Shown: piece by piece, positions 35,481-44,645 of the stretch
Numbering within the stretch: the stretch's first letter is position 1
How the letters are laid out: each line of letters starts with the position of its first letter
Origin: Nitrospira sp. MA-1
Lineage (GTDB): Bacteria; Nitrospirota; Nitrospiria; Nitrospirales; UBA8639
Length of the DNA stretch: 64,000 nt
Assembly: GCA_032139905.1 (NCBI GenBank)
Contig: JAQJDB010000007.1
Location: 124,001-188,000, forward strand
Direction of reading: 5' to 3'
The notes under the pieces: model-generated
The model's database searches: none
Told to the model about the DNA's origin: nothing
The model's input: the letters and a program-made list of their open reading frames with translations, nothing else
Translations under genes and position numbers: made by a program

Positions 35481-36392
35481 TCATTCGTTTGATAGGGGGA
35501 GAGTGGTCAATGAGTAGGGATTGATTCGAGAGCCATTTAAGTGGATGCCCCAATGGAGATGAGGGCCCGTGGCTCTTCCGCTTGATCCGACTTTGCCTAA
35601 CGCTTCCCCTTTTTGAATTGTTTGCCCGGAGGTGACGTCAATCTCTGAGAGGTGGAAGTACATGGAAAACAAGCCTACTCCATGATCCAAGACCACACCC
35701 TTTCCGGAGAAAAAGTGATCGACTGTTTTCACGACGATTCCTTTGTTAATGGCTTGGACCGGAGTGCCTTTTGGTGCCGCGATATCTTCTCCTGAATGAG
35801 GTCTTCGGGACTGACCATTAATGATTCGACGACTGCCAAACACTCCGGTGACTTTCCCATTCACAGGCTCAAGAAAAGGCCCATCCCATAAAGGACGTGC
35901 TCCAATATGGTGAAAGGTCTCTGTCAATTCTTTCTTTTCTTTTTGGACGCGCTTTAATGTTTTAGCGTCAAGATCCACTGTATTTTTCGGCAGGGTCAGG
36001 TGTTGGACGGTATAGTCTTCTTTGATGATGAGGACGGAGTAGCTAAGATGGTCTGTTCCGGTGTCGGAATGGACCGTGATACTTAATTCCTGTATCCCCG
36101 GTGGATCTTCCATGTCGATTCCCACAATGCCCGCAAAGTTGCCATCGCCATGGGGGAAGAAGGGAATCTTCCGTTTGAGAAATAGACCATTCACTTTGGC
36201 CTTAGATTGAGATATTGGAACGTTGATCCAGAGGACTTGGCCCTGCTTTCCGCTGACATGTCCATTGGCACCCGGTCGGCTCCGTTCCGCACTCGGAACG
36301 ATCTGAATAGGGAAAATGCTGGCGAGCAGCAGACAAACGATAAACAGGATTTTCCATGAGACCGAAGGAATGGGTGGGGGCGACGTGTTCAT
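35481..36392 (-). CDS. M23 family peptidase
   Basis: 303 residues. A signal anchor (ILFIVCLLLASIFPIQIV) is followed by a beta domain and a C-terminal LytM domain. Zinc motifs are present: HSGEDIAAPKG and GPHLHWGIHLNG, with MYFHLSEI between. It cuts peptidoglycan cross-links in the periplasm. The ATG overlaps the pafA stop codon (ATGA), so the two are translationally coupled although they act in different compartments. Confidence 0.9.
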   Translation of the reverse strand: MNTSPPPIPSVSWKILFIVCLLLASIFPIQIVPSAERSRPGANGHVSGKQGQVLWINVPISQSKAKVNGLFLKRKIPFFPHGDGNFAGIVGIDMEDPPGIQELSITVHSDTGTDHLSYSVLIIKEDYTVQHLTLPKNTVDLDAKTLKRVQKEKKELTETFHHIGARPLWDGPFLEPVNGKVTGVFGSRRIINGQSRRPHSGEDIAAPKGTPVQAINKGIVVKTVDHFFSGKGVVLDHGVGLFSMYFHLSEIDVTSGQTIQKGEALGKVGSSGRATGPHLHWGIHLNGSRINPYSLTTLPLSNE

Positions 36393-37765
36393 CAGGGGTA
36401 AAGCCGATTATGAGGGACTTGGCTGAGTAATTCTTCTACACGCCGATTAAAAGGACAAAAGGGATCCATGCATAGAATAGTTTCTTCCCAGTACCCGTTC
36501 AGTTTGAGATAAGTCCAATCCACAGTATAAGACCGATTTTTAGCACGGGCAAATCTGATGAAGTCTCCTCGCACTTTTGCGCGTGTGGTTTGAGGAGGAA
36601 TCGTTTTTGCTTGTTCAATCGCGTCCTCATCGATCATTTTTCGAATATGATTACGTTCAGCTAAAAGATGAAACAGGCTTCGTTGTCGGTTAATGTCATG
36701 ATATTGCAAATCCATCATGCCTAATCGGGGGTCGTCCCATCCACAAGACTTTTTGGCCATGTAATTTTCGAGAAGCCATTGTTTGGTGATCCAGTCGATT
36801 TCGCGGACGAGTGACATGGGGGACGTATTCAACGCCTTCAACACTCGACCCCATTCATAATGCACCTCTGTCATGATTTTATTGGGAGGTTGCAAGGCTA
36901 AATATTCACCTGCCCGTTCCCAGAAGGTCTGTTGAATCTCCAATGCGGTCAGGCTGCTCCCATCCTCAAGCTTGACTGTTTTTTTTAGAGTGGGATCCCG
37001 AGAGATATCTCGAATCGCTTTAACAGGTTCTTCTAACTCTATATGAGGAATGGTGAAACCGTCTTCGATCATGGAGAGGACGATCATGGCTGTCCCCACT
37101 TTTAAGTAAGTGGAAAACTCAGACATATTGGAATCGCCGAGGATGATATGCAGTCGACGGTATTTTTCGGCATCAGCATGAGGCTCGTCGCGGGTGTTGA
37201 TAATGCTTCGGGAAGACGTCGTGGAGGAAGACGTTTTTTCATGGATATGTTGCGCGCGTTGGGAGATGAAGTATTGAGACTTCCCTGAGACTTTCAAGAT
37301 TTTTCCGGCCCCAGAAAAAATTTGACGAGTGACGAAAAAGGGGATGAGTTGTTCGCTGACTTTCCAGAAATCCACATCCCGGCGCATGAGGAAATTTTCA
37401 TGGCACCCATAGGTGTTGCCGAGGGAATCCGTATTGTTTTTAAAGATAAAGATCTCACCGGATAGTCCCTCTTCGCGCAAGCGCTCTTCGGCAATGGGCA
37501 GACAACTTTCCAGGATCCGCTCACCGGCTTTATCGTGGATGATCAGATCAAGCAGATCGTCGCATTCGGGAGTGGAGTATTCCGGATGGCAGCCGGTGTC
37601 CTGGTAAAACCTCGCTCCATTCGTCAGGAAGGCATTGGAAGGCCAGCTATTGGGGATGAGTCCTTCAAAAATGTACCCGAGGATTTTTTCAATAGGAAGG
37701 TAGACCCGACCATTCGGGGAAAATGTCAGACCATATTCACTCTCAAGGCCAACAATGCGTTTCAT
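36392..37765 (-). CDS. pafA: Proteasome accessory factor PafA (tag ligase)
   Basis: 457 residues from ATG 37765 (MKRIVGLESEYGL); a GTG-initiated upstream extension lacks family residues. Hallmarks are HPEYSTPECDD, FKNNTDSLGNTYGCHENF, INTRDEPHADAEKYRRLHI and GDSNMSEFSTYLKVGTA, all on the glutamine-synthetase-like fold. PafA uses ATP to join the C-terminal Glu of Pup (or UBact in Gram-negatives) to target lysines. It follows prcA after a 282-base gap with no evident gene and overlaps the M23 gene. Confidence 0.95.
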   Translation of the reverse strand: MKRIVGLESEYGLTFSPNGRVYLPIEKILGYIFEGLIPNSWPSNAFLTNGARFYQDTGCHPEYSTPECDDLLDLIIHDKAGERILESCLPIAEERLREEGLSGEIFIFKNNTDSLGNTYGCHENFLMRRDVDFWKVSEQLIPFFVTRQIFSGAGKILKVSGKSQYFISQRAQHIHEKTSSSTTSSRSIINTRDEPHADAEKYRRLHIILGDSNMSEFSTYLKVGTAMIVLSMIEDGFTIPHIELEEPVKAIRDISRDPTLKKTVKLEDGSSLTALEIQQTFWERAGEYLALQPPNKIMTEVHYEWGRVLKALNTSPMSLVREIDWITKQWLLENYMAKKSCGWDDPRLGMMDLQYHDINRQRSLFHLLAERNHIRKMIDEDAIEQAKTIPPQTTRAKVRGDFIRFARAKNRSYTVDWTYLKLNGYWEETILCMDPFCPFNRRVEELLSQVPHNRLYP

Positions 37766-38047
37766 CATACCCGGCCCGTCCCTCTCCGCAGACACTCTAA
37801 GGACAGATAGTGCCCTGTCCTCCACCTCCTTCTCGTTTAAAGGACCTACCCGCCAATCAATAGAAATCCTCCTCGAGTCCTTCGGTCTTGCTGAATAGGC
37901 CTTCTCAAGAGATTCGATCTTTCACTTTCCGTGTTTTGGAAATGAATCATGGTTGAAAACATGGGAATGACTACACTGATTCCCATACTCAGAATACACC
38001 CAGATCCATCAATGATCAACTGAATGAGGGGAGCAAAACAGGAGATG
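37766..38047. other. Gap between prcA and pafA, searched for a tag gene
   Basis: 282 bases. All three minus frames were read by hand. The longest closed frame ends LLIGG after 46 codons (37986-37846) and lacks the conserved Pup/UBact tail. It probably holds a promoter for pafA. Confidence 0.5.
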
Positions 38048-38731
38048 TTACGACAGAATTTGAGAGGCCTCGATGATCGGGACCCGGCGAAATCTTCTAC
38101 CTATTCTGGTTCGGTCCAGGAGAGCGACTTCCAAGCCTTCTAAATTTGCTCGAGAATCAGCCCCCTGTTCAAAGGCCTGTTGGCAGAGCGTTAAGGCTTC
38201 TTTTAGGGACGGGCAGGTTTCCGGAATTTCCTTCCTGAGGAGGGTCAAGATTGTTTCGGACCGTCCCCCAATGGCGGTGAATCTTCGTTCATCCACAATA
38301 CTCCCATCAAAGGAGATGCGGTATAACTCATTGCGCTCGGGTGTCTCGCCGACCTGGGCCAGGAGGAGTTCCACTTCGTACGGTTTCATTTCCTGGCTAA
38401 AGAGGGTGCCGAGAATTTGTGAATAGCCATTTGCCAGGGATCGTGCCGTCACATCTTCGCGACTGTACATCATGCCTTTGACGTCGGCATGTTGAATGCC
38501 GGCTTTCCGGAGATTCTCAAATTCGCTGTATCTCCCCGCCCCTGAAAATGCGATGCTGTCATAGATCTCAGAAATTTTAAACAGAGAAGCACTGGGGTTA
38601 TCGGCGACAAACAGCACTCCATCCGAATATTCCATGGCTATGATGGATCGACCTTTGGCAATACCTTTCTTGGCATACTCCGCCCGGTCCTGCATCATTT
38701 GTTCTGGTGAAACGTAATAGGGCAGGGCCAC
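38048..38731 (-). CDS. prcA: 20S proteasome alpha subunit
   Basis: 227 residues, typical of bacterial PrcA. The start MALPYYVSPEQMMQDRAEYAKKGIAKG is the alpha N-terminal gating region, followed by GRSIIAMEYSDGVLFVADN. There is no propeptide or catalytic Thr, as expected for alpha. It forms the outer rings. Its start is 3 bases after prcB ends, implying coupled expression. Confidence 0.94.
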   Translation of the reverse strand: MALPYYVSPEQMMQDRAEYAKKGIAKGRSIIAMEYSDGVLFVADNPSASLFKISEIYDSIAFSGAGRYSEFENLRKAGIQHADVKGMMYSREDVTARSLANGYSQILGTLFSQEMKPYEVELLLAQVGETPERNELYRISFDGSIVDERRFTAIGGRSETILTLLRKEIPETCPSLKEALTLCQQAFEQGADSRANLEGLEVALLDRTRIGRRFRRVPIIEASQILS

Positions 38732-38734
38732 TGT

Positions 38735-39577
38735 TTAAGTCTCCTGTTTTTGGTTCACTATTGCTTCGCACAATGCCGCTAATTGGGTGTCTTCCACATC
38801 TCGAACTCCCTGAGAGTCAACTAATTTTACGGTCGGGAAAATTCGTCGGACCAAATCAGGTCCCCCGGTTCCGACATCCTCATCTGCGGCATTGATTAAG
38901 GCACGAAGGGCCACTTTGACCGCGTCGTCTTCTGGTAAGTTTTTCCGAAAATATTCCTTTAAAGTGGATCGGGCATCTTTTCCGCCTGAGCCGACTGCGT
39001 GAAAATCCGTGTCTTCGTAGCGTCCTCCGGTAATGTCATATTTGAAGAGCCGCCCAACCTCTCGTTTGTGGTCATAGCCGACAAATAGGGGAATGACCAC
39101 GAGTCCATGCAAGACCATAGGGAAATTTGCCTTAACCATATGCCCAAGCCTGTTGGCTTTCCCTTCGCAGGTTAAGGGCTGTCCGTCAAGTTTCTCGTAA
39201 TGTTCCAGCTCGATTCGGAACAGCTTGGCCATTTCCACGCAGGGCCCTGCAGCCCCTGCAATAGCCATGGCGGAATAGCCATCGGTTTGAAAGACCTTTT
39301 CCATGCGATTCGCGGCGATTTGATATCCTTCCGTTGCGCGACGGTCTCCGGCGATGAGGACGCCGTTATCATAGGTGAAGGCGAGAACCGTGGTGCCGTG
39401 GGGCCAGGGAAACTGATTGGAGGACATCAAGGATGGGTCTGTTTGGCCTTGTTGGGAGAGTGAGGTTTTCCATCGCTCCATGGGGAGCAATTCGGGTCGT
39501 TGTGAGGTGAGATATTGGTAAAAACTGGAACACGGATCGGCTGAAAAGTTTGGAAAGGGGATGTCTTTAAAATTCAT
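38735..39577 (-). CDS. prcB: 20S proteasome beta subunit
   Basis: 280 residues. A 61-residue propeptide ends in PWPHG and the catalytic Thr follows at position 62 (TTVLAFTYDNGVLIAGDRRATEG). Conserved GDRR and the later SGGKDA are in place. After self-cleavage it forms the proteolytic inner rings. It lies between dop (41 bases upstream) and prcA. Confidence 0.95.
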   Translation of the reverse strand: MNFKDIPFPNFSADPCSSFYQYLTSQRPELLPMERWKTSLSQQGQTDPSLMSSNQFPWPHGTTVLAFTYDNGVLIAGDRRATEGYQIAANRMEKVFQTDGYSAMAIAGAAGPCVEMAKLFRIELEHYEKLDGQPLTCEGKANRLGHMVKANFPMVLHGLVVIPLFVGYDHKREVGRLFKYDITGGRYEDTDFHAVGSGGKDARSTLKEYFRKNLPEDDAVKVALRALINAADEDVGTGGPDLVRRIFPTVKLVDSQGVRDVEDTQLAALCEAIVNQKQET

Positions 39578-39618
39578 GTGACCTCAATGGTACCTTGCCG
39601 AATGGGTTCTCTGTTCAT

Positions 39619-41097
39619 TTAGGACTTCCCGAGTCGGGATATTAACTGATCCACCGAGGTAATGTCCCTAAACAATTCTTGCGTGAGCTGTTGAGTGCCT
39701 CGATAAGGATCCATCAATGGAATACGCTTAATAGCGGAATTTCCCGAGTGAAGGAGGACGGACGTCCAACTCATGCCGTATACCTGTTTTGGAAGGTGTT
39801 TTAAGCATTGACCTCGAAAAAAAGCCCGAGTGAAAGCCGGTGCAGTCTGACGAGCCCGTTCGACTTCCTGATCAAGAGTTAGACGTTCTATTTGGCCTGT
39901 TCGCTCCAAGGTGTAGTACAGCCCTTTGGTTGGTCGCACGTCGTGATACTGTAAATCCATCATGGCCACTCTGGGATCTTTCCAGGAGCATTGTTTGCGA
40001 TCCATGTAGGATTGAATTAATGCGTGTTTGGCGACCCAATCGACTTCGCGCCGAAGCTCAAAGGGATCACGCTCCAAGGTAGCCAGGGTGGATTCCCAGC
40101 GTACAAGCACCTCTTTGGTGATAGGGGAGACCTCTCTGGTTCGATAAAAGTCATGGGCTGATTGCAGAAAGGCCCGCTGAATAGCGATGGCGGTGGTGTG
40201 TTGCCCATTGTGTAAAGGAAGCGACGTTTTCACGGTCAGATCTCGTGATACCGCCTTGATGGCCTTGACGGGATCGGTCAATTCAATATGAGGAAGGGCT
40301 CCTTCTTGTTCCAGCATTTCCATGATAATGGCGGTGGTGCCGATTTTTAAGAAGGTGGATACCTCGGACATATTGGCATCACCCACGATGACGTGAAGAC
40401 GTCGGTAGTCGCCTTGATGGGCATGAGGTTCATCACGTGTATTTATAATAGGACGGTGAACCATCGTGTTGAGATCAAGCAGGCATTCAAAAAAATCTGC
40501 CCGTTGTGAAATTTGATAGGAAACAGGATCTGCTCCGTTTTCTGCTCCGACTTTTCCTGCTCCACAAAAGATGGGGCGGGAAACAAAGAAGGGGAGTAGC
40601 ACGTTGGCTATCTGCTCGAACGGGATCCGGCGGGATAAAATATAATTTTCGTGGTATCCGAAACTGTTGCCTTTCCCGTCTGAGTTGTTGCGGTAGACCA
40701 GAAAGTTTTCTTCCCCGCTACTGTGGTTCAGGCGGGCCAGACATTCAGCCACAATGTGGTCCCCGGCACGTTCATAGGCCACCACCTCACGGGGATTGCT
40801 GCATTCGGGGGTGGAATATTCCGGATGAGCGCCATCGACGTAGAGACGACCGGCATTCGGCAAGACTTTATTGAGTTGACGATTATAGGTCGCGCTTGGT
40901 CTTTCGGGTTCGCCTTCGACCGGAAAGCCTCGAGCATCCAGGAAGGGATTTTCGTTCTCGTAATCCCAGAGAGCGGCGGGAGTTGGGAGATGGGGACAGT
41001 GACTGATTAACCGAAGGGAATTCGCTACGGGATCAGGGTGGCCTGTGGAGCGAGAAATAATTCCGAATTCAGTTTCCGTTCCAAGAATTCGCAGCAA
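39619..41097 (-). CDS. dop: Dop, deamidase/depupylase
   Basis: 492 residues. It begins MLRILGTETEFGII and contains the Dop-specific insertion (ALWDYENENPFLDARGFPV), then AHPEYSTPECSNP, YRNNSDGKGNSFGYHENY, INTRDEPHAHQGDYRRLHV and GDANMSEVST. The Dop-loop and the GKGNSFGY text separate it from PafA. It activates a Gln-ended tag or removes tags from substrates. It is placed between ARC and prcB, with 30-41 base gaps. Confidence 0.93.
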   Translation of the reverse strand: MLRILGTETEFGIISRSTGHPDPVANSLRLISHCPHLPTPAALWDYENENPFLDARGFPVEGEPERPSATYNRQLNKVLPNAGRLYVDGAHPEYSTPECSNPREVVAYERAGDHIVAECLARLNHSSGEENFLVYRNNSDGKGNSFGYHENYILSRRIPFEQIANVLLPFFVSRPIFCGAGKVGAENGADPVSYQISQRADFFECLLDLNTMVHRPIINTRDEPHAHQGDYRRLHVIVGDANMSEVSTFLKIGTTAIIMEMLEQEGALPHIELTDPVKAIKAVSRDLTVKTSLPLHNGQHTTAIAIQRAFLQSAHDFYRTREVSPITKEVLVRWESTLATLERDPFELRREVDWVAKHALIQSYMDRKQCSWKDPRVAMMDLQYHDVRPTKGLYYTLERTGQIERLTLDQEVERARQTAPAFTRAFFRGQCLKHLPKQVYGMSWTSVLLHSGNSAIKRIPLMDPYRGTQQLTQELFRDITSVDQLISRLGKS

Positions 41098-41127
41098 GGA
41101 GGCCTCATGGAGAGCAGCTAAAAATGG

Positions 41128-42810
41128 TTAAAAATAATGCCCAACGCTGATGGTTTCAATTTCTCGAGGCTCTGAATCCTCGTCGGTGGTTAAGGTGCGC
41201 ACATGAACAATTTTTTCGCCTTTTTTGCCTGCTATTTTTGCCCAGTCATCGGGGTGAGTGGTATTTGGTAAATCTTCCTGTTCTTTGAATTCTTCCCGAA
41301 TGCCCCGCAGAAAGTCCTCGGGTTTCAGGCCTTTGGCTTCGCCGGAAATTGCCCGTTTGATGGCCAGTTTTTTTGCACGGGAGACCACACTTTCGATCAA
41401 CGCGCCACTGGAAAAATCTTTGAAGTACACCGTTTCCTTTTCCCCATTGGCATAGGTGACTTCCAGAAATTGATTTTCTTCCGTCAAGGCATACATGGCC
41501 TCCACGGTGGTTTCAATAAGATGATTGATAAACGTCGATCGATCTGAGCCATGTTGGGTCAATTCAGCTTCCGCAAGGGGCAAGTCTGAGGTCAGATATT
41601 TCCCGAGAATATCTTTTGCACTCTGCTTGTCAGGTCTGGGAATCTTAATTTTGATATCCAGACGCCCCGGTCTCAAAACCGCCGGATCAATGAGATCTTG
41701 CCGGTTACTGGCACCGATGACGATGACGTCTCGAAGGCTTTCTACTCCATCAATTTCGGATAAGAATTGGGGAACGATAGTTGATTCCATATCCGAGGAA
41801 ATACCTGTCCCTCTTGTTCGGAATAACGCATCCATTTCATCAAAGAAGACAATGACCGGATTGCCGTGTGACGCCTTCTCCTTCGCTTTCGCAAACACTT
41901 CTCGAATTTGACGTTCGGATTCACCGACATATTTGTTCAATAACTCGGGTCCCTTGATGTGGAGGAAGTAACTGCGAACGTCCTTGCCTTTGAGGTGACC
42001 GAGTTTTTTCGCGATGGAGTTTGCGACAGCTTTGGCAATCAAGGTTTTCCCGCATCCAGGCGGTCCATATAGCAAAAGACCTTTTGGAGGGGATAAGCGG
42101 TGTTCAGCAAAGAGCTCTGGATACAGGAAGGGCAATTCCACGGCGTCCTTCACCTGCTCCAGTTCTTTGGTTAACCCACCGATCTGGTCATACTGAATAT
42201 CCGGAACTTCCTCAATGACGAGTTCCTCCATTTCACCTTTGGGAAGTTTTTCGATGAGGTATCCGGATCGTGGTTCAAAGAGGAGATGGTCGCCGACACT
42301 CAAAGTCTGGTGTTTCAGCGAATCCGAGATTTCAACCACTCGCTCGTCGTCCAGGCGAAGGCTAACCACTGCGCGTCCATCGTCCAGGAGGTGTTTGAGA
42401 TGGGCGATTTCGCCTTGCGGATCATACCCTCGCGATTCAATCACGTTCAGGCCTTCGTTCAAAATAACTTCTTGGCCTTTTTTAAGGGAATCTGCCGGGA
42501 TAGATGGATGAAGGTTGACCCGTAGCTTTCTACCGCCAAGTGAGACAGTCACGGTCCCGTCTGCGTTCGTGTTGTAGAAGATGGCAAAAGTTGATGGAGG
42601 CGCCGTGAGTTTGTCGACTTCCTTTCGAAGCGCTTCGATTTGTGCTTTGGCTTCCTGTAACGTAGAAACTAACTGCTCGTTTTTCTGCTGAGAAAGGTGC
42701 AGCTTTTGACGAGATTCATGCAGTTGCCGCATTTCGAGTTCCATGGACTCAATCTCGGTTCGTAACTTTTCAATTTCACGGATATGATCGTCTGATTTTC
42801 GGATTCCCAT
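41128..42810 (-). CDS. mpa: Proteasome-associated AAA ATPase ARC/Mpa
   Basis: 560 residues. The N-terminal coiled coil (about 8-70) recognises the tag, then OB domains (about 75-190) and the AAA core. Walker A is GPPGCGKT (249-256) and Walker B VIVFFDEMDALF (319-330). The C-terminus ends GHYF, a variant of the GQYL-type docking tail that opens the proteasome gate. It is the first gene of the locus, 192 bases after thiE in the same direction. Confidence 0.95.
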   Translation of the reverse strand: MGIRKSDDHIREIEKLRTEIESMELEMRQLHESRQKLHLSQQKNEQLVSTLQEAKAQIEALRKEVDKLTAPPSTFAIFYNTNADGTVTVSLGGRKLRVNLHPSIPADSLKKGQEVILNEGLNVIESRGYDPQGEIAHLKHLLDDGRAVVSLRLDDERVVEISDSLKHQTLSVGDHLLFEPRSGYLIEKLPKGEMEELVIEEVPDIQYDQIGGLTKELEQVKDAVELPFLYPELFAEHRLSPPKGLLLYGPPGCGKTLIAKAVANSIAKKLGHLKGKDVRSYFLHIKGPELLNKYVGESERQIREVFAKAKEKASHGNPVIVFFDEMDALFRTRGTGISSDMESTIVPQFLSEIDGVESLRDVIVIGASNRQDLIDPAVLRPGRLDIKIKIPRPDKQSAKDILGKYLTSDLPLAEAELTQHGSDRSTFINHLIETTVEAMYALTEENQFLEVTYANGEKETVYFKDFSSGALIESVVSRAKKLAIKRAISGEAKGLKPEDFLRGIREEFKEQEDLPNTTHPDDWAKIAGKKGEKIVHVRTLTTDEDSEPREIETISVGHYF

Positions 42811-43002: not shown

Positions 43003-43629
43003 TCAGGATAATCGTGCAAGCAGTTCCCCTGTGATGTCTGGAATTGAAGGCGATTGAAGAATGGAAGAAATGACGGCGACTCCGTAAGCCCCGGATGATA
43101 AGACGTCAGGAACTCTGATCGGGGTGATACCTCCAATGGCATAGATGGGCACGTGGATAGTTCGGCTCGTTTTCTGAAGAATCTGGATTCCTAAAGGTGG
43201 TCCATATGCTCGCTTTGAAGGCGTATCAAAAATGGGACCAAGCACGATGAAGTCGGCCCCTTCCGCTTCCGCCACTCGGGCTTCTTCAACGGAATGCGTC
43301 GAGACGCCGATGAGGTGTCCGGTTCCTAACAGGCGACGAGCAACGGAAACCGGAAGACTATTTGTCCGAAGATGTACGCCGTCGGCTCCAATGGCAAGGA
43401 CCAGGTCGATACGATCATTCAATAAGATGATTCCATGTTGGTGTTTGATAAGAGGGAAGAGCTGTTGACAAAGGGAAGTCAGATCTCGAGTCTTCAGGTC
43501 TTTTTCGCGGACTTGCACCATCCGGACCCCGGCGTCTACCGCTTCGGTTAGCACGGAGGAGAGGGGACGATTGAGAGTTTGATGCCGATCGGTCAGAAGA
43601 TAAAGTTTGGGAAGAATGCGCGAGGACAT
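43003..43629 (-). CDS. thiE: Thiamin-phosphate synthase
   Basis: 208 residues. TIM-barrel marks are LYLLTDRHQTLNRPL, VRMVQVREKDLKTRDL, LLNDRIDLVLAIGADGVHL, GVSTHSVEEA, FIVLGPIFDTPSKRAYGPPLG and YAIGGITP. It joins the pyrimidine and thiazole phosphates to form thiamin phosphate. It follows thiG by 13 bases. Confidence 0.95.
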   Translation of the reverse strand: MSSRILPKLYLLTDRHQTLNRPLSSVLTEAVDAGVRMVQVREKDLKTRDLTSLCQQLFPLIKHQHGIILLNDRIDLVLAIGADGVHLRTNSLPVSVARRLLGTGHLIGVSTHSVEEARVAEAEGADFIVLGPIFDTPSKRAYGPPLGIQILQKTSRTIHVPIYAIGGITPIRVPDVLSSGAYGVAVISSILQSPSIPDITGELLARLS

Positions 43630-43642
43630 TCCTAATAATGGG

Positions 43643-44416
43643 TTACAGCATTCCCTCGATAGGGCTGCTGGCCGTCGCGTATAACTTCCTGGGAATTCTT
43701 CCAGCCCTGTAAGCTAATCGCCCGGCGTCGACGGCGTACCGCATGGCCGTGGCCATCATCAACGGATCTTTGGCTCCGGCAATAGCCGTGTTCATTAATA
43801 CGGCATCGGCTCCGTATTCCATGGCCAGGGCTGCGTCAGAAGCGGTTCCAACTCCAGCGTCAACGATGACCGGTACATTGACTGTTTCCATGATGATTTT
43901 GAGATTATACGGATTGCGAATACCGAGACCTGAACCGATCGGTGCGGCGAGTGGCATCACGGCAGGACATCCAATATCGGCTAACTTTTTGGCGACAATG
44001 GGGTCGTCATTGGTATACGGTAATACCACAAAGCCTTCGGCGATCAAAATTTTTGCGGCTTCAATGAGCCCGGCCGTATCAGGAAATAGCGTACGTTCAT
44101 CTCCAATCACCTCTAATTTCACCAAATCTGAAACGCCTGCAGCACGGGCCAGTCGTGAATAACGAACGGCATCCTCAACGGTATAACACCCTGCCGTGTT
44201 GGGTAAAATGGTATATTTTTTCGGATCAAGGTAATCTAGTAAATTTTCTGATTTATGATCGGTGATGTTGACCCGGCGAACCGCAACCGTCACTACATCA
44301 GCTCCGGAAGCTTCAATGGCTTTTCGGGTTTCCTCAAAGTTTTGATATTTTCCGGTTCCGACCCAGAGCCGAGAGCGGAATGTTCGACCAGCAATGATTA
44401 ACGGATCCTGATTCAT
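43643..44416 (-). CDS. thiG: Thiazole synthase
   Basis: 257 residues from the ATG at 44416 ([13 protein letters not shown]), with a GGGGAAGAG ribosome site; a longer frame begins inside thiS. The catalytic Lys lies in [10 protein letters not shown], with [28 protein letters not shown] and [10 protein letters not shown] also conserved. It forms the thiazole ring using ThiS thiocarboxylate. It lies between thiS and thiE. Confidence 0.95.
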
Positions 44417-44435: not shown

Positions 44436-44645
44436 TCATGTGGGGCAGCCGCCTCCAATAAAGCTTAAAATTTCAACCTTGTCTCCATCGTGAAGATTCC
44501 AGGTGAGAAAATCTCCACGGTCTAATATTTTTAGGTTGATTTCTACTGCGACTTGTTCGGAACGGAGGTCAAGCGTTGAGAGAAGTTGTGCGACCGTCAA
44601 CGGTTCCTCGGCCTCGCGTTGTTCTCCATTCACGACTATGTTCAT
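44436..44645 (-). CDS. thiS: ThiS sulfur-carrier protein with C-terminal extension
   Basis: 69 residues of the ubiquitin-like ThiS fold ([40 protein letters not shown]). ThiS normally ends in Gly-Gly, which becomes a thiocarboxylate. Here three residues follow the Gly run (IGGGCPT, then stop), so processing or a different tail would be needed. The thiG start lies 19 bases after the stop. No TPP riboswitch was found upstream. Confidence 0.92.

Follow-up and report, generated by a model that had tools for sequence, protein, structure and literature searches.

Residues after the terminal glycines of ThiS in Nitrospirales and their probable removal by a JAMM protease

How is a sulfur carrier activated if its gene continues beyond the codons of its terminal glycines? 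The question is raised by thiS of Nitrospira sp. MA-1 (assembly GCA_032139905.1), found in a stretch of 64,000 nucleotides of contig JAQJDB010000007.1 (positions 124,001 to 188,000, forward strand), hereafter the window. The genome, labelled G000, has 4.76 Mb in 7 contigs, and the window is C7:124001-188000 in our numbering, where G numbers identify genomes and L numbers fetched loci. The window ThiS ends FIGGG-CPT. We consider it probable that it is a capped precursor, trimmed behind GGG by a JAMM metalloprotease and then activated by an E1 enzyme, and that the same protease serves other capped carriers. The features concerned are the following (window coordinates).

44436-44645, minus strand: thiS, coding the capped sulfur carrier ThiS of 69 amino acids (TIGR01683, 75.4 bits over residues 3-66; open reading frame and DNA)
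44448-44456, minus strand: Gly-Gly-Gly codons, presumed mature C-terminus (sequence; GGG is the last stretch aligned to TIGR01683)
44439-44447, minus strand: Cys-Pro-Thr codons of the tail, for the residues behind GGG that we predict are trimmed off (sequence; tails in 18/18 thiG-linked ThiS of the genus)
43643-44416, minus strand: thiG, thiazole synthase, the partner of ThiS (PF05690, 375 bits; DNA)
43003-43629, minus strand: thiE, thiamine phosphate synthase (TIGR00693, 168.6 bits, cut-off 145.1)

The identity of the protein as ThiS is given by its score against the thiS equivalog TIGR01683, which is twice the cut-off (37.45 bits) and covers model positions 1-64 of 64, by 54 bits against the Pfam ThiS profile, and by linkage to thiG, which lies directly downstream and is followed by thiE. 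The alignment to TIGR01683 stops at the third Gly, so that CPT is outside the family model. Both the reading frame and the DNA, with a TGA stop codon at 44436-44438, bear out the residues after the terminal glycines reported in the initial annotation. The encoded protein thus does not end at its terminal glycine and is filed as a ThiS precursor. Note that the thiG start at 44416 is our choice, an ATG after AAGGGGAAGAG, the mechanical open reading frame starting at 44458; 19 bases separate this likely ATG from the thiS stop codon.

Tails are the norm in relatives. ThiS C-termini were taken from the best-scoring listed matches, the genus matches and the 80 best named loci, and the fractions given here are therefore not estimates from a random sample. 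A match to the window ThiS is present in 20/20 genus genomes; the thiG-linked ThiS was read in 18 of them and carries in all 18 between 2 and 14 residues after GGG, starting with S (13), C (3) or A (2). GGG-CPT is common to the window genome and two other genus genomes. In the order, which comprises families f1 and f2 (13/15 f1 genomes of the phylum sample with thiG-linked ThiS read, and 38/62 f2 genomes), 67/68 thiG-linked ThiS of G-labelled genomes are tailed, and in the complete genome of Nitrospira moscoviensis the tail has 20 residues. Across the phylum the proportion is 117/160 (G-labelled genomes). Relatives ending in GG, seen by the initial annotation as a potential objection, are rare in the order (G246, the one of 68, plus the named locus L248) and numerous outside it, where exact GGG ends are found in 9/10 ThiS read in f25 and 8/8 in f31. 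Collapsing identical sequences leaves 208 unique ThiS, almost all of them from this phylum, with a few from other phyla through the named loci: 157 are tailed, three of these by fusion to ThiG, and 51 end exactly at GGG. The named loci overlap the G-labelled genomes (G274 and G246, for instance, share match coordinates, and L242 is apparently G246 again), and the named locus L258 has a ThiS that stops close to the locus end and is not thiG-linked. Tails range from 1 to 46 residues, and at least 17 and 16 changes between tail and no tail are counted on two trees. A conserved functional motif in the tail was rejected, as its length and residues vary; self-cleavage by a nucleophile (Cys or Ser) after GGG was rejected as well, since A, G and other residues occur there.

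The initial annotation had stated that no JAMM protease is encoded in the window and had proposed a search for one of the Mec/QbsD kind. A six-frame search of the genome with PF14464 (E up to 1) has no match inside the window and identifies one such protein on contig C3 (C3:131148-131555, 63.9 bits, cut-off 25), which dissolves the implied puzzle of an absent protease. In the fetched locus the gene occupies L046:9104-9643. Its product belongs to the Prok-JAB family by match (64.3 bits) and by its intact catalytic motif, E...HSH-x7-S-x2-D, present as HECC...HSHTFSPARPSQTD. Its relatives by sequence in the PDB are 2kks, 2kcq and JAMM1 (5ld9, 5lda), and its score against the desampylase equivalog NF041370 (57.2 bits) is below the cut-off of 130. 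A second JAB match in the genome (E 4.9e-4, 259-residue frame) is below cut-off and in our reading is RadC. The JAMM gene is part of a cluster:

L046:4363-9643 (G000:C3, ~126.4-131.6 kb): two capped carriers, two E1s, a CysK-type synthase, a threonine-synthase-type enzyme, a NIL-domain protein and the JAMM protease

The two E1s are the only full-length ThiF-family matches in the genome. A third match (28.6 bits, cut-off 28.1) aligns at profile positions 110-236 alone.

The window ThiS is not the only capped carrier of this genome. Five carriers match PF02597, and four of them have residues after the last Gly: ThiS (CPT), the ThiS-like protein coded beside the CysK-type synthase (A), the SAMP1-like protein of the cluster (A) and MoaD (SWVSWAKEKG). 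The fifth (L048:4134-4328, minus strand), the sole uncapped one, ends exactly in ISGG, and its gene adjoins that of a TtuA-like tRNA thiolase. The same holds in the genus. MoaD was readable in 16 of 17 fetched loci and always has residues after PPFAGG, first S (8), A (7) or T (1); the tail has 1-15 residues in the 15 unfused loci, the 16th (G008) coding a MoaD-MoaE fusion. In the 12 genus genomes read, the ThiS-like cluster carrier always has one extra residue (A 9, V 2, E 1; five further genus matches were not fetched), as does the SAMP1-like carrier (S 5, A 3, R 3, T 1). Together, 58/58 carriers of the four kinds read in the genus are capped. JAB matches that exceed the cut-off occur in 15/20 genus genomes. 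The five others are fragmented assemblies; in four of them (G007, G013, G015, G017) the cluster is truncated by the end of a contig, and no carrier of the JAMM cluster was found in the fifth, G008. The SAMP1-like carrier adjoins the ThrC-like enzyme in the cluster, and our guess is that the two form a step, so far undescribed, that is fed by the carrier and perhaps leads to homocysteine.

These observations suggest the following course of events. ThiS would be translated as a precursor with the C-terminal cap CPT. Since adenylation requires a free terminal glycine, the capped protein must be cut, and the sole Prok-JAB metalloprotease of the Mec/QbsD kind (G000:C3, ~131.1-131.6 kb) would do so behind GGG. 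The freed glycine would be adenylated by one of the two MoeB/UbaA-like E1s of the JAMM cluster, and the ThiS thiocarboxylate would then supply ThiG. The same JAMM would trim MoaD, the CysK-linked ThiS-like carrier and the SAMP1-like carrier, and the E1s would likewise be shared. As the protease erases everything past the glycines, the stop codons of the carriers would be nearly neutral; tails could lengthen, shorten and sometimes fuse to the next protein, with only the first residue restricted. The QbsE-like cap removed by a JAMM that had been proposed for this ThiS is the reading with the best support, from residues after GG and from an intact-motif JAMM coded in the same genome, beside E1s and capped carriers.

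The limit on the first residue is visible in the order. Of 154 unique ThiS with an unfused tail, 120 have A, S, T, G or C as its first residue; the corresponding counts are 148/453 at tail positions 2-6 and 56/236 for sense codons just past the stop codon of untailed genes, all of them without regard to kinship. Kinship was considered with a tree of 107 ThiS-ThiG rows (identical rows collapsed, rows with a ThiG below 150 amino acids dropped), which are 67 order rows from G-labelled genomes and 40 named loci picked by motif whose membership of the order is presumed. The first residue is one of these five small residues in 99 of the 105 tailed rows. The tree requires at least 31 changes of this residue and at least 5 crossings between small and other residues; the second residue makes 43 changes with 17 crossings and the third 37 changes with 20. 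Small first residues are found in 62/64 unique order rows from G-labelled genomes. Variation of the first residue is thus largely confined to the small residues, which is what the tolerance of a protease would produce. In the order the tails appear constrained at this position and drifting in the remainder, a pattern that fits a trimming protease.

Fusions occur as well. In two f28 genomes and one Planctomycetota locus thiS reads in frame into thiG, and in the genus MoaD is found fused to MoaE:

L361:2422-3396 (G126): ThiS-ThiG fusion, GGG then T, both domains Pfam-confirmed
L187 (G175): ThiS-ThiG fusion, GGG then A
L289 (Planctomycetota): ThiS-ThiG fusion, GGG then A
L336:1030-1755, minus strand (G008): MoaD-MoaE in-frame fusion, Pfam ThiS and MoaE

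In the two f28 fusions the thiG ATG immediately follows the first codon after GGG, and GGAGGAGGA just upstream of this ATG could be a ribosome site.

The presence of tails and of the JAMM protease was compared across genomes. In the phylum sample 75/77 order genomes have a PF14464 match with E <= 1e-12, and the two without one at this level (G037, G251) have ~230 contigs each. For the comparison, we removed three carrier-2 type matches (their motif starts with FL) and excluded the 17 genus relatives; weak JAB matches were scored absent in G022, G037, G251 and G095 and present in G161 (8.8e-9) and G234 (2.9e-7), those in frames of ~230-280 amino acids being RadC-like in our reading. JAMM is present in 102 and absent in 5 genomes with tailed ThiS, and present in 41 and absent in 9 with an exact end (Fisher p 0.013). 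Among nine genomes assigned by their titles to other phyla, a JAMM match above cut-off is present in 4/4 with tailed or fused ThiS and 0/5 with exact GGG. This agreement is suggestive only, because some of these ThiS are not beside thiG in the fetched stretch (L266 and L307, two of the four with JAMM, and L300, one of the five) and because the five genomes that lack JAMM are smaller assemblies, their completeness not being given. In the order, G246 (repeated as G274) and G275 have an exact ThiS end and have kept JAMM, which fits a tail that is tolerated and not needed.

A number of results weigh against trimming of ThiS by this JAMM. The protease gene does not adjoin thiS, the former being on C3 and the latter on C7. 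With thiG-linked ThiS alone, JAMM is present/absent in 95/5 tailed and 39/4 exact cases (p 0.45), and 11 independent tree pairs give ~2 in the expected direction, 0.2 in the opposite one and 8.7 without difference, which is not significant. Strong co-evolution of tail and JAMM is thus not supported, the phylum table being weak and not significant when the tree is considered. Two near-complete genomes, G137 (98% complete) and G141 (100%; loci L086, L092), have a tailed ThiS and no Prok-JAB match above weak RadC-like ones, which is not easily attributed to assembly gaps. A search of both with PF01398 found nothing and is a weak control, since the JAMM of G135 escaped it too. Of the other tailed genomes without JAMM, G095 is 74% complete and G251 has its cluster carrier ~1.1 kb from a contig end. 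In the comparison outside the phylum, the five assemblies with exact GGG have 1.2-3.9 Mb and the tailed ones 5.8-7.5 Mb. Small first residues are much less frequent outside the order (21/48), and the single extra residue is R, V or E in 6/24 carriers of the JAMM cluster, so that the small-residue preference is no simple rule of the JAMM protease.

A different peptidase therefore keeps some probability, given that the cut is something we infer, that JAMM is unlinked to thiS and that a few tailed genomes have no JAMM. General peptidases could nibble back a flexible end, the tail being harmless drift, and the tail lengths from 1 to 46, the JAMM-less G137 and G141 and the weak association once kinship is counted all agree with this. 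We nevertheless regard it as unlikely. In Streptomyces, deletion of the JAMM gene ptmS1 alone abolished the use of carriers capped with MV and C, despite the presence of carriers with open GG (PMC6006322). Unspecific trimming also fails to predict a first residue that is constrained in the order and later ones that are not, and the ThiS-ThiG and MoaD-MoaE fusions have to be cut internally if their second protein is not also translated from its own ATG.

A cap with a regulatory or conjugation-related role is improbable. ThiS would then be kept inactive until cut, or would be joined to other molecules in the manner of ubiquitin, JAMM undoing the bond. The cluster carrier that passes the SAMP1 cut-off (64.6 bits, cut-off 60) points in this direction, as do the matches of the cluster E1s to the SAMP-activating E1 model and of JAMM to the desampylase model, both below cut-off. 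As tails differ freely from one ThiS to another and a few members of the order have none, they carry no conserved signal, and no E2-like protein is found among the eight cluster proteins scanned. It is still less credible that ThiS is used uncleaved or that thiazole is made by another route without ThiS: no point in favour was found (THI4-type thiazole genes, ThiH and ThiO were not searched for), the window keeps thiS, thiG and thiE side by side, an alignment of 12 ThiS has 15 invariant columns, and a free C-terminal glycine is required for adenylation, as reported for carriers (PMC6006322) and MoaD (PMC3227635). A sequencing or frame error that shifted the stop codon, considered in the initial annotation, has nothing in its favour and a negligible probability, because tails are found genus-wide in separate assemblies (18/18 thiG-linked ThiS) and in the complete Nitrospira moscoviensis genome.

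Just downstream of thiSGE, the region 36392-42810 codes a Pup-ligase family protein (PF03136) and a proteasomal ATPase (PF17758, PF16450), both Pfam-confirmed. It also holds open reading frames that we take to code a second Pup-ligase-type protein (36392-37825) and two proteasome subunits (38048-39577). No Pup-like frame ending GGE or GGQ is present among the stop-to-stop frames of at least 40 amino acids in the window.

Trimming of ThiS by JAMM has parallels in known systems. The closest are PtmS2 and PtmS3 of Streptomyces, which have one or two residues (MV, C) after GG in a genome with one JAMM (PtmS1) and one MoeZ-type E1, and where loss of the JAMM gene abolishes the use of the thiocarboxylate (PMC6006322). 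QbsE with QbsD, a pair cited in that paper, are likewise a capped carrier and its JAMM. PtmS2, PtmS3 and QbsE differ from the window ThiS in that they serve natural-product pathways and JAMM adjoins the capped carrier, whereas the cap considered here is on the ThiS of thiamine synthesis, coded beside thiG with no adjoining JAMM. In Deinococcus radiodurans, DRJAMM cuts a MoaD-MoaE fusion to the C-terminal Gly, and cyclic pyranopterin monophosphate accumulates in the DRJAMM mutant (PMC8832034). A JAMM thus frees the glycine of a housekeeping cofactor carrier there too, and the MoaD-MoaE fusion is shared with this genus (L336); the pathway however is that of molybdopterin, not thiamine, and the substrate is a fusion, with no short drifting tail. 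Iyer et al. 2006 proposed that a JAB protein could free ThiS or MoaD from fusions; the ThiS-ThiG fusions are met here again (L068, L187, L289), while short tails on thiamine ThiS are not described in the available text of that work (PMC1779556). The CysO-CysM-Mec system of Mycobacterium combines a carrier, a cysteine synthase, an E1 and a protease, similar parts to those of the G000:C3 cluster; Mec releases cysteine from CysO, a use other than uncapping of ThiS (PMC3227635). In the literature searched on ThiS tails and on ThiS with JAMM, in which subscription papers were partly covered and some results were noisy, no description of a capped thiamine ThiS was found. Capped carriers, JAMM trimming and ThiS-ThiG fusions are already known; caps as the norm on a housekeeping ThiS throughout an order, and on MoaD in the genus, the first residue being constrained and the tail drifting, seem to be undescribed.

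Ubiquitin precursors carry tail residues or ribosomal-protein fusions that deubiquitinases remove. The likeness lies in a beta-grasp protein whose C-terminus is variably extended or fused and in a protease cut after GG; the difference is that here the protein is a bacterial sulfur carrier of thiamine synthesis, whose cut we infer. It seems to us evenly balanced whether the parallel extends to the Nitrospirales as a whole, with most sulfur carriers, ThiS and MoaD included, being inactive precursors and one JAMM providing their general maturation before two essential cofactor pathways, the stop codons being freed to drift up to in-frame fusion as with deubiquitinases and ubiquitin precursors. 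If JAMM trimming of ThiS is correct, annotation that ignores tails conceals a processing step, and the tails would be a natural record of what the protease tolerates at its cut site. They may also offer a model of how ubiquitin-type precursor processing arises by drift, the loss of a stop codon costing carriers little once a trimming protease is given. Vitamin B1 synthesis would then depend on a deubiquitinase-type protease throughout an order of bacteria to which nitrite oxidisers such as Nitrospira moscoviensis belong.
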